From positions 1-38,250 of the IMG/VR virus record IMGVR_UViG_3300030117_002348: a stretch of DNA of 38,250 bases. One strand, given 5' to 3'. Below are positions 14,269 to 18,521 of this stretch, piece after piece. A program made the translations under genes and the position numbers. The stretch comes from a virus. The notes below the pieces were generated by a model. The model was not told the DNA's origin. It was given only the letters and a program-made list of their open reading frames with translations, and searched no databases. Positions within the stretch are counted from its first letter, which is position 1, and the number at the start of each line of letters is the position of its first letter.

Positions 14269-14460
14269 ATGACATGGGAATATCCCCAGAGATTAGACAA
14301 ACACTGTACAAATAAATATTCTGTTTACAGGAACAGAGTCAACGGCGCTTTAATACTTAGAAGCGCAGAAGATTATGCAACCTCTCAGGTATATATTGGT
14401 TACAGTATACGAGAAGCTAAACGAATGTTTAGAAACTATTTGAAGGAGATGAAAATATGA
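14269..14460 (+). CDS. 63-residue early protein, unknown
   Basis: 63 residues with ribosome-binding site GGAAGGAG. 'DKHCTNKYSVYRNRVNGALILRS' then 'SQVYIGYSIREAKRMFRNYLKEM': a beta hairpin followed by a basic helix. This arrangement resembles small DNA-mimic or DNA-binding folds but no family is recognised. Overlaps ardA by 4 nt (ATGA). Confidence 0.45.
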   Translation: MTWEYPQRLDKHCTNKYSVYRNRVNGALILRSAEDYATSQVYIGYSIREAKRMFRNYLKEMKI

Positions 14461-15038
14461 AACTACAAACAAAAGACTACCTAGAAATCTGTCCAGGTTG
14501 TCTTGCTTGTTACAATCAAGGGCGCCTTACTTTTTATTGGTTTAGGTTAAATAAAGAAACAACACTAAAACAAATTGAAGCAGCGCTTGATATTGAAGAG
14601 ATACACAAGAGAGCAAAGACACCGTACGCATGCGGCGGTGATGAAGTACACATACAAGATAATGATTTCAACGGCGGCGAGTATATGACCGCTAAAGAAA
14701 TTTATGGGTATGTAAAGCTGCTGCGCCTGGTACCTTCATTTGATTATGTAAGAGCATTTAAAGAAATCTATTTGATGAATGATGAATTTGAATGGTTCGA
14801 AGCTAGCGATATGTTTAAAAGATTCGCTGAAGATGTCATGACGTTTGACAGCGACAGAGAATTTAATACGCACCTGGAAGACATATTCACAGAGACACAC
14901 GGCATTAATGATGACCAAAACCCATTATTAAATCCATTAATAAATTATATACAATGGGACGCAGTAGTTAGAGATATGAAAATGGACTGGGAAGAAGTAG
15001 AAATTAGCGGCACAACATACGCATGGAGGAAATTATGA
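14457..15038 (+). CDS. ardA: ArdA-type antirestriction protein
   Basis: 193 residues, ribosome-binding site GAAGGAG. ArdA blocks type I restriction enzymes by mimicking DNA. The family layout is readable end to end: 'CLACYNQGRLTFYWFRL' (15-31), 'IEAALD', 'EVHIQDNDFNGGEYMTAKEIYGYVKLLRL' (about 64-92), 'FEASDMFKRFAED', 'FNTHLEDIFTETHGI' (about 140-154), and the dimer/C-terminal block 'NYIQWDAVVRDMKMDWEEVEISGTTYAWRKL' (163-193, matching Y-I-D-x-x-R-D in ArdA). Strongly acidic, as expected of a DNA mimic. Slightly longer than the classical 165-170 residues. Among the surest calls in the early region. Confidence 0.8.
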   Translation: MKLQTKDYLEICPGCLACYNQGRLTFYWFRLNKETTLKQIEAALDIEEIHKRAKTPYACGGDEVHIQDNDFNGGEYMTAKEIYGYVKLLRLVPSFDYVRAFKEIYLMNDEFEWFEASDMFKRFAEDVMTFDSDREFNTHLEDIFTETHGINDDQNPLLNPLINYIQWDAVVRDMKMDWEEVEISGTTYAWRKL

Positions 15039-16217: not shown

Positions 16218-16294
16218 TGGAGGTGGTAGGAGTCGAACCTACGTTGGTTAGATGAGTATTTGGATAAGCATGTAACCCTTACCAGATCACCCCC
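16218..16294 (-). ncRNA. tRNA/tmRNA acceptor-domain-like RNA, no anticodon arm
   Basis: Read on the minus strand: a 7-bp acceptor stem (GGGGGTG with CACCTCC) whose third pair is G-T, the G3-U70 identity pair of alanine tRNA and tmRNA; discriminator A; and a perfect T-arm (GTAGG, loop TTCGACT, CCTAC). Length 77 nt, like a tRNA. However, no 7-nt anticodon loop on a 5-bp stem fits. The start GGGGGTGATCTGG resembles a tmRNA 5' end, whose D-loop has no stem, and nucleotides 18-49 form a long hairpin (GGTTA-C-ATG with CAT-C-TAACC, internal loop, TAT/ATA) in place of D and anticodon arms. CCA is not encoded. A minus-strand promoter is just upstream. Alternatives: degenerate tRNA or attachment-site remnant. 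Confidence 0.5.
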
Positions 16295-16302
16295 ATGTCT
16301 AC

Positions 16303-16331
16303 AGTATACTATATATAGTGTAGACTGTAAC
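16303..16331 (-). promoter_or_regulatory. Minus-strand promoter for the tRNA-like RNA
   Basis: On the minus strand: GTTACA (16331-16326), 17-nt spacer, TATACT (16308-16303). The predicted start lies about 2-5 nt before the first base of the RNA at 16294. The same segment forms a dyad (GTCTAC 16297-16302 with GTAGAC 16320-16325) around ACTATATATAGT, which could be an operator. Confidence 0.45.
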
Positions 16332-16613: not shown

Positions 16614-18521
16614 ATGTCAAATAACGAAAAAATCACTATCTGCACTGCAGACAATTGTTTAGTCCCATTACCAGAAGGTCGTAAGAAGTATTGTAGTGAT
16701 AGATGTTCTAAAAGAACAAGACAACGTGCCTGGCGTGCAAGTAAACCAACAACAGATCTACAAGTAGAAAAGACTGTAGATGAGAATGTACAGAAGCGTA
16801 GAGGAGACTACTACGCCATTATGAAGAAAAAAAATTTTTTTGACGACATTTTACAAGGTAATAAAACAAAAAAAGAAGTAGCAAACATACTAAGCTGCAG
16901 TCCGTCTACAGTGTCAAGAGCTGTTGCAGCATACTTAGAAGACGTAGAGAAGGAAGCAGCGATCGAACGACGTGGGGACCCATTCGAGCTGCAGGCAGAT
17001 GTAGACTCTTTTGTAGAGTTTCGTGATGAATATTTCTTGACAGAGCAAGGTAAAAATTATGAAACACCTGACTTTCAAAAGAAGTGGATTGGTGCTATCT
17101 TAGATAGTATACAACACGGTAAACGTTTAATGGTTCTGTCACCACCTAGACATGGTAAAACAGATCTACTAACACACTTTTGCGTATACATGATTTGTAA
17201 AAATCCAAACATACGTATCATGTGGTGCGGTGGTAACGAAGATATTGCACGTAACTCCGTAGGTGCTGTACTAGATCACTTGGAGAACAATGAAGGACTT
17301 ATACAAGATTACGGAGACTGGGACGGATTTAGACCTTCTAATCGCGGCGGAAAAAGTTGGTCGTCCAGTCAATTTACTGTTGCAACTAGAACAGTCTCTG
17401 GTATTAAGTCGCCAACTCTTGTCGCAATTGGAAAAGGAGGTAAGATCCTTTCCAGAGACGCAGACCTTATTATTGCAGACGACATCGAAGATCATGGCTC
17501 AACTGTGCAACCAAGTGCTAGAGAAAACACAAGAAACTGGTGGACAACAACTTTACAGAGTAGAAAAGAAGAACATACAGGAATGGTCGTTATCGGATCA
17601 AGACAACACCCAGACGATTTATACCATCATCTCTTAGAAAACAAAGCATGGGAAACTATTGTAGATCGTGCGCATGATTTAGAAGTACCACTAGAAGATG
17701 AGTCTATAGATCATAGTAAACACATGTTGTGGGCTAGTAAACGTACACATAAATGGTTAATGGAACAGTTAGCTGCTGCAGAGACTACAGGTGGTAGAAA
17801 TATTTTTGAAATGGTTTATTTAAACAAAGCTATACCAGAAGGTATGGAATTGTTTACAGCAGAGATGATAGATCAGTGTTTAGACAAGTCAAGAAAATTA
17901 GGAGACATACCACCAGGTACAAGTCTTATTGCAGGATTAGATCCTGCTAGTACAGGTTATCAAGCAGCAGTGTTATGGGCATATAATGTAAAAACACAAC
18001 AAGTATGGCTTGTAGATATGAAAAACGATCAAGGCGGTGGTATACAAAAAGCACATAATCTAATGAAGGAATGGTATGACAAATACTGGTTATCACATTG
18101 GATTATAGAAGAAAACGGATTCCAACGCGCTATAGGACAAGATAGAGATATAAAACTATGGGCAGCTAATCATGGTGTACGTATAGAAGGACACCAGACA
18201 TACAAAAACAAATGGGATCCTACATTCGGTGTAACAAGTATGGTAGGCATGTATGAACAAGAAAAAATAAATATACCGTATGCAGACGCAAAAACACAAA
18301 GACTTGTAAATATATTTAGACAACAGTTAATTTATTTTTCACAAGCAGGTGCAAGTAATTCACGTAATGTAAAAACAAAAACTGACTTAGTTATGGCTAG
18401 TTGGTTCCCTATGAAACGTATACGCACCAATGTAAAAATGATGTTAGCAGAAGCAGAGAGCGACTATACTCCTTCTTATAGTTATTACAAACAAAGCGAA
18501 TACAACGAGGTTTTTTGGTAA
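16614..18521 (+). CDS. Large terminase with N-terminal zinc finger and HTH
   Basis: 635 residues. The packaging motor: ATPase plus nuclease. Residues 10-31 hold a C-x4-C...'YCSDRC' zinc finger; about 82-110 read as a helix-turn-helix ('TKKEVANILSCSPSTVSRAVAAYL'), as found in small terminases. Walker A is 'LSPPRHGKTDLL' (about 174-185), Walker B 'ADLIIADDIED' (about 284-294), a coupling motif 'GMVVIGSRQHPDDLY' (about 322-336), and the nuclease domain starts with 'IAGLDPAS' (about 439-446), with 'KTDLVMASWF' near the C-terminus. No separate small terminase is obvious upstream, so DNA recognition may be built in. The ribosome-binding site is weak (AGAGAG). Confidence 0.9.
   Translation: MSNNEKITICTADNCLVPLPEGRKKYCSDRCSKRTRQRAWRASKPTTDLQVEKTVDENVQKRRGDYYAIMKKKNFFDDILQGNKTKKEVANILSCSPSTVSRAVAAYLEDVEKEAAIERRGDPFELQADVDSFVEFRDEYFLTEQGKNYETPDFQKKWIGAILDSIQHGKRLMVLSPPRHGKTDLLTHFCVYMICKNPNIRIMWCGGNEDIARNSVGAVLDHLENNEGLIQDYGDWDGFRPSNRGGKSWSSSQFTVATRTVSGIKSPTLVAIGKGGKILSRDADLIIADDIEDHGSTVQPSARENTRNWWTTTLQSRKEEHTGMVVIGSRQHPDDLYHHLLENKAWETIVDRAHDLEVPLEDESIDHSKHMLWASKRTHKWLMEQLAAAETTGGRNIFEMVYLNKAIPEGMELFTAEMIDQCLDKSRKLGDIPPGTSLIAGLDPASTGYQAAVLWAYNVKTQQVWLVDMKNDQGGGIQKAHNLMKEWYDKYWLSHWIIEENGFQRAIGQDRDIKLWAANHGVRIEGHQTYKNKWDPTFGVTSMVGMYEQEKINIPYADAKTQRLVNIFRQQLIYFSQAGASNSRNVKTKTDLVMASWFPMKRIRTNVKMMLAEAESDYTPSYSYYKQSEYNEVFW

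Follow-up and report, generated by a model that had tools for sequence, protein, structure and literature searches.

The window, that is, the whole stretch of 38,250 nucleotides analysed here (IMG/VR virus record IMGVR_UViG_3300030117_002348, positions 1 to 38,250), encodes on its minus strand a short RNA which, judged from its sequence, is the tRNA-like domain (TLD) of tmRNA without the mRNA and pseudoknot part. tmRNA is the bacterial RNA that rescues stuck ribosomes. What is new, and is indicated by comparative searches, is that TLD-only RNAs form a family widespread among phages; the closest case known before is that of Mycobacterium phage DS6A.

The RNA and its relation to tmRNA

The RNA reads GGGGGUG-AUCUGGUAAG-[GGUUACAUGCUUAUCCAAAUACUCAUCUAACC]-AAC-GUAGG-UUCGACU-CCUAC-CACCUCC-A, and its parts are listed in Table 1. 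All seven acceptor pairs form, the third being G3-U70, and a single middle hairpin stands where a D stem and an anticodon arm are missing. The original prediction had described a 7-bp acceptor with G3-U70, a discriminator A, a perfect T-arm, a hairpin at RNA positions 18-49 and a total of 77 nt, and each of these features was recovered in the sequence. The genomic tail after the discriminator is CAA (ACAA including the A), so CCA would be added post-transcriptionally.

Table 1. Coordinates of the RNA, its parts and its neighbours in the window
Feature	Position	Strand	Remarks
TLD-only tmRNA-like RNA, 77 nt including discriminator A	16218..16294 (5' end 16294)	-	pattern, RF00023, leave-out covariance model
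Acceptor stem, 5' strand GGGGGUG, G3 at 16292	16288..16294	-	7/7 pairs kept in 7/7 variants
Acceptor stem, 3' strand CACCUCC, U70 at 16221	16219..16225	-	
D-loop-like segment without stem, AUCUGGUAAG	16278..16287	-	
32-nt hairpin, RNA positions 18-49	16246..16277	-	replaces P2 and the entire mRNA/pseudoknot part
T-arm, 5 bp, loop UUCGACU, perfect	16226..16242	-	
Inverted repeat over the -10-like hexamer; two 12-nt arms with 92% complementarity and 5 nt between them	16297..16325	.	kept in 24/24 related contigs
Promoter-like GTTACA-17-TATACT, ends 8 bases before the RNA	16303..16331	-	-10-like hexamer invariant in 24 contigs
Terminase large subunit	16614..18521	+	phrog_38, E 5.3e-67; next large gene, opposite strand

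Neither a tRNA nor a tmRNA was called by ARAGORN in the window, and Rfam gave no match there at gathering scores. In a permissive Rfam search of the window, tmRNA (RF00023) was the best model of its clan, with 30.1 bits (E 9.2e-11) and an alignment that spanned model positions 1-374 with the middle deleted; in a multi-record search the RNA scored 38.7 bits, and the window together with its group 38-45 bits. Both scores of the window RNA lie below the RF00023 gathering threshold of 47 bits. A leave-out covariance model (R2), made from 34 family members with no window-type sequence among them, gave the RNA as its sole match in the window (54.6 bits, E 1.5e-9), and the RNA was therefore placed in the family as a divergent member while its RF00023 score remained under the cut-off. 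The best score outside the elements in the companion search of 28 sources was 27.8 bits, and the annotated tRNAs of the element-bearing loci fell among these low matches (<=27.8 bits). Single-query BLAST against phages returned short T-arm matches only.

The features of the tmRNA TLD present in the window RNA are the 7-bp acceptor with G3-U70, the stemless D-loop and the T-arm. As had been proposed from the 5' end, the first 13 letters are identical to the tmRNA consensus in the RF00023 alignment; the consensus start of the canonical one-piece tmRNA (ssrA), GGGGguGAucuGG, is matched letter for letter. AUCUGG in the D-loop-like segment belongs to this consensus, and UUCGAC, which comes next in most tmRNAs, is absent. 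Two motifs that are common elsewhere in the family, UUCGA in the D-loop and an A-rich one at the apex, are missing from the window subfamily. The canonical tmRNA also shares the GA..GG motif of the stemless D-loop, but it is ~350 nt long and has an mRNA-like domain, a resume codon, a tag and pseudoknots, none of which the 77-nt window RNA contains: no mRNA-like domain with tag frame or pseudoknots was found by RF00023 alignment or ARAGORN. Likewise, no tRNA cloverleaf with a D-arm and a 5-bp/7-nt anticodon arm was found by ARAGORN, folding or the Rfam clan comparison, in which tmRNA outscored tRNA, and the claimed lack of an anticodon or D arm was thereby borne out. The folding energy is unremarkable (z = -1.44), and the case for the RNA rests on conservation, covariation and homology, not on folding energy.

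Conservation and surroundings in the phage group of the window

The RNA is carried at the same place by 24 related contigs (window included), with a mean identity of 95% as against 85% and 81% in the 100-base flanks. Seven distinct variants occur, none of which breaks a pair of the acceptor or the T-arm, and the third T-arm pair changes on both sides from A-U to G-C. The hairpin has 96.1% of its cells paired in these variants; its changes fall mainly in loops and mismatches, one pair goes from A-U to G-U, and few pairs vary. Covariation inside the window subfamily is thus thin, with one both-side change, and proves little alone.

The original prediction had offered two further origins for the RNA. 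A decaying, degenerate tRNA or tmRNA gene would fit the sub-threshold Rfam score of the window subfamily and its lost D-loop motif; the excess of conservation over the flanks, the retention of all acceptor and T-arm pairs and the covariation of the wider family make such decay highly improbable. The second origin, an attachment-site remnant of ssrA or of a tRNA gene of the host, draws on the common reuse of 30-45 bp of tRNA or tmRNA 3' ends by phage att sites (PMC10865867). The best matches in ~700 actinobacterial and pseudomonadotan genomes, outside which the host may lie, were stretches of 26-30 nt of T-arm plus acceptor at 87-92% identity, with no long match in these genomes, and the seven best-match loci examined were all tRNA-Tyr genes. 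Moreover, the whole RNA is conserved, including the 5' acceptor strand, and its tail is ACAA rather than CCA. On the genomes searched, we give a relic of this kind very little credence. No integrase was found among the window ORFs scanned.

The promoter that had been predicted immediately upstream is present as a sequence, but it does not exceed chance by itself: two promoter-type sites were observed in the scan versus 2.0 expected from shuffles. As evidence, the promoter prediction was therefore set aside. The inverted repeat over the -10-like hexamer is a possible operator. All window proteins with a family match lie on the plus strand, and within that set of proteins the description of the RNA as the only minus-strand gene held. 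The RNA sits 320 bases upstream of the terminase gene, a neighbour from which it can be placed where the packaging/structural module begins. Most relatives in the phage group become similar to the window abruptly, after unrelated sequence, at window position ~16057, just before the RNA and the terminase; this sharp onset may be a module border or a packaging site. An ArdA-like antirestriction protein (PF07275, E 3.7e-7) is encoded at 14457-15038 on the plus strand. No host is claimed for the phage of the window, since its terminase and large structural protein match Streptomyces and Bacillus phages at 26-29% identity only.

The wider phage family and its alanine identity pair

When the pattern GGGGNTGAYNTGG-N25-55-GGTTCGANTCC was run over IMG/VR, 56 contigs were obtained, about half of them without DNA-level relation to the window. 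A looser pattern gave at least 120 matches in IMG/VR and 23 stretches in bacterial and archaeal genomes totalling 257 Gb, many of these stretches unable to form the acceptor stem. Of 247 actinomycete genomes, 2 have a match. Two broad scans, with at least 120 matches each, put the number of unrelated IMG/VR contigs with the TLD-only architecture at well over 150. The RF00023 cut-off was passed by 30 of the 41 phage records holding the element, always through matches of 65-83 nt over model positions 1-374.

Fully paired examples are mostly 74-83 nt long and share one layout. The acceptor stem is followed by a D-loop that has no stem but contains GA..GG and, in most cases, a motif like UUCGAC. 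Next comes a middle stem of ~7-8 bp, which bears an A-rich bulge on its 5' side and is topped by a small CC..GG hairpin; a linker resembling GAC then leads to the T-arm. In 81 representatives the middle stem runs uninterrupted for 6.75 bp on average, versus 3.24 bp in shuffled sequence. In an alignment of 41 diverse sequences, 85.2% of the cells of the named structure are paired (65.0% when shuffled), and 219 both-side changes were counted versus 91.8 in shuffles, a number that none of 500 shuffles reached. The covariation score was 0.478 versus 0.134 +/- 0.013 in shuffles (0/500 reach it), and structures with slid partners scored at most 0.131. Thus clearly covarying stems, which the original prediction had pointed to as a test of the RNA, are present in the wider family.

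G3-U70 is the alanine identity element and is read by AlaRS. In an acceptor-agnostic pattern, the D-loop and T-arm motifs were fixed and the acceptor was left free except for C71, C72 and A73, so that bases 3 and 70 could vary; at least 120 matches were obtained in IMG/VR. Among the matches listed, all 71 unique elements have seven of seven acceptor pairs and not one has lost the identity pair G3-U70, whereas GC, CG, UA, AU and some GU occur at pairs 4-69, 5-68 and 6-67 of these elements. CUCC stands in 87 of the 87 elements among the matches listed, though the pattern permitted CNCC. The presence of U70 in every case where C would pair better argues for selection for AlaRS charging, by which the invariance of G3-U70 would be best explained. 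The view of the RNA as a mini-tmRNA-like, alanine-chargeable phage product is supported by the R2 match, by the 30 of 41 records above the RF00023 cut-off, by covariation and by the 71 of 71 elements with G3-U70 among the matches listed.

The same invariance would also be expected if the RNA acted mainly on AlaRS or EF-Tu, as an alanine sink or donor. A regulatory RNA, bound by a protein of the phage or the host through the apical hairpin and acting outside ribosome rescue, is part of this alternative, and it fits with the recurrence of the apical part of the middle stem across unrelated phages among the matches listed. However, the tmRNA-specific features that are kept (GA..GG D-loop, UUCGAC, GGAC linker, no anticodon arm) would not be needed by an alanine minihelix and count against an action of this type, which is regarded as improbable.

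Several variants were recorded beside the family. In contigs L069, L073, L076, L102, L128, L221 and L227 a plain hairpin replaces the bulged stem in versions of 63-67 nt. A manA RNA (RF01745, 79 bits) lies at L020:4133-4328 (minus strand), ~110 nt upstream of the TLD-only RNA. A group of 68-69-nt elements on bacterial contigs has the acceptor (G3-U70) and T-arm of the phage family with a different middle, and those searched scored 43-49 bits with the family models: L137:7904-7971 (Rubrivivax), L138:3927-3994 and L143 (Poribacteria), L140:2507-2574 (bacterial contig), L149:6305-6373 (Sulfopaludibacter) and L152:5072-5139 (Bradyrhizobium). They are possibly another anticodon-less tRNA-like family. 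Strong members (66-87 bits) were found at L150:5119-5196, L146:150-228, L145:986-1062 and L142:1450-1523, on contigs binned as Bacteroidales, an archaeon, Gemmatimonadetes and Nitrosotalea, respectively; these are likely phage contigs or misbinned. A match in Pectobacterium phage Bobbio was dropped because its 36 bits with the family model fall within the tRNA range. ARAGORN 'tmRNA' calls of 300-650 nt in L026, L061, L063 and L103 looked spurious by eye, each joining an element end to distant sequence.

Predicted action on host trans-translation

Mycobacterium phage DS6A is listed as having a 'TLD only' tmRNA (Hudson et al. 2014, PMC4131195), and the 2025 tmRNA database paper, in which viral genomes are included, gives DS6A as the phage example of the CDS-less form (PMC11915505). 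As described in both sources, the DS6A RNA (tmID 11587; Phage__Mycobacterium.9) is, like the window RNA, phage-encoded, with little beyond the TLD and no tag frame; it was reported as a single phage case, whereas a wide family with a divergent subfamily is found here, the two being compared through the published description. No publication on a phage TLD-only family was found in a literature search, mostly of open-access papers. According to the passages of PMC4131195 that cite Mao et al. 2009, a molecule similar to the DS6A TLD, chargeable or not, strongly inhibits E. coli tmRNA, perhaps by titration of SmpB. By analogy, this work on a DS6A-type RNA would provide functional support for interference with trans-translation.

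On balance, it appears probable that the alanylated TLD-only RNA competes with host tmRNA for SmpB and stalled ribosomes and suppresses tagging. The tag frame and pseudoknots would have been replaced by one capped stem, host AlaRS would charge the RNA with alanine, and the charged RNA would bind host SmpB and EF-Tu. It would compete with the full tmRNA of the host both for SmpB and for those ribosomes that have stalled on broken mRNA. Since it has no resume codon and no tag, the RNA could not complete trans-translation, and in infection nascent phage (and host) chains would be spared tagging and proteolysis, to the presumed benefit of the phage. Neither SmpB nor a full tmRNA above the RF00023 cut-off was found in the 41 phage records, many of which are fragments (one 332-nt match scored 25.5 bits); the phages would probably use host SmpB.

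The invariant G3-U70 and the acceptor pairing favour an RNA that is charged and functional over a passive sponge. If titration of SmpB works with uncharged RNA, as Mao et al. 2009 are quoted in PMC4131195, the invariant pair is surplus to the decoy model; its invariance would exceed the needs of a pure SmpB sponge and points to ribosome entry. Alternatively, therefore, the alanyl-TLD may enter stalled ribosomes with host SmpB and take the nascent chain, which would then be released untagged, for instance by peptidyl-tRNA hydrolase, so that ribosomes keep turning over and phage proteins are spared. Such tag-free rescue resembles what has been proposed for the tag-less mitochondrial tmRNAs, which are conserved together with nucleus-encoded SmpB according to PMC11915505; but a related TLD-only RNA inhibited endogenous tmRNA in E. 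coli (PMC4131195), an additional, hypothetical step would be required to release the chain where there is no stop codon, and we consider this outcome unlikely. If it does enter ribosomes, the RNA may act there as a blocker or as a tag-free rescuer.

The TLD-only RNAs are probably a means by which phages block ribosome rescue or get around it. A more far-reaching proposal, put forward tentatively, is that TLD-only tmRNAs are widespread, selected and obligatorily alanylated, that they enter stalled ribosomes with host SmpB to a tag-free outcome and that their conserved apical hairpin brings in one more partner. If alanylated TLDs do give a tag-free outcome, trans-translation would be a common target of phage takeover. 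DS6A alone could pass for a curiosity, but the form recurs in many unrelated phages, among them isolated Streptomyces phages that have laboratory hosts. Two questions thus become testable: is trans-translation routinely blocked or rewired by phages, and can a message-less alanyl-TLD rescue a ribosome?

Loss of the message has parallels in organelles: PMC11915505 sets mitochondrial and plastid CDS-less tmRNAs beside DS6A, including mitochondrial forms without a tag frame and the ~65-bp plastid forms of Mallomonadaceae. These evolved by prolonged reduction alongside a SmpB partner encoded in the nucleus, whereas the window RNA is phage-borne and would rely on host SmpB. Full-length tmRNAs of phages, such as that of mycobacteriophage Bxz1 and the two-piece tmRNA of phage Melnitz, are also phage-encoded ssrA derivatives; unlike the message-less window RNA, these complete molecules could carry out tagging (PMC9004378, PMC4131195).

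A 2022 survey reported ARAGORN-detected tmRNAs in 402 of 18,146 phages (PMC9004378). In the loci scanned here, ARAGORN called no element correctly; the short form falls in an annotation blind spot, and five Streptomyces phage isolates of ~112-116 kb (LuckySocke, GiJojo, Alone3, pSt2308 and BRock) carry the element unannotated. They were found by BLAST with a first set of concatenated elements; a second such set gave no match. In these phages the element lies between the tRNA-Val and tRNA-Ser genes of a tRNA cluster, in which genes for thioredoxin and an RNA ligase are also found. The large tRNA cluster, the RNA ligase and a Ro-like RNA-binding protein encoded by these Streptomyces phages (L154, L155 and L278-L280) suggest that tRNA repair or protection operates alongside the TLD-only RNA.
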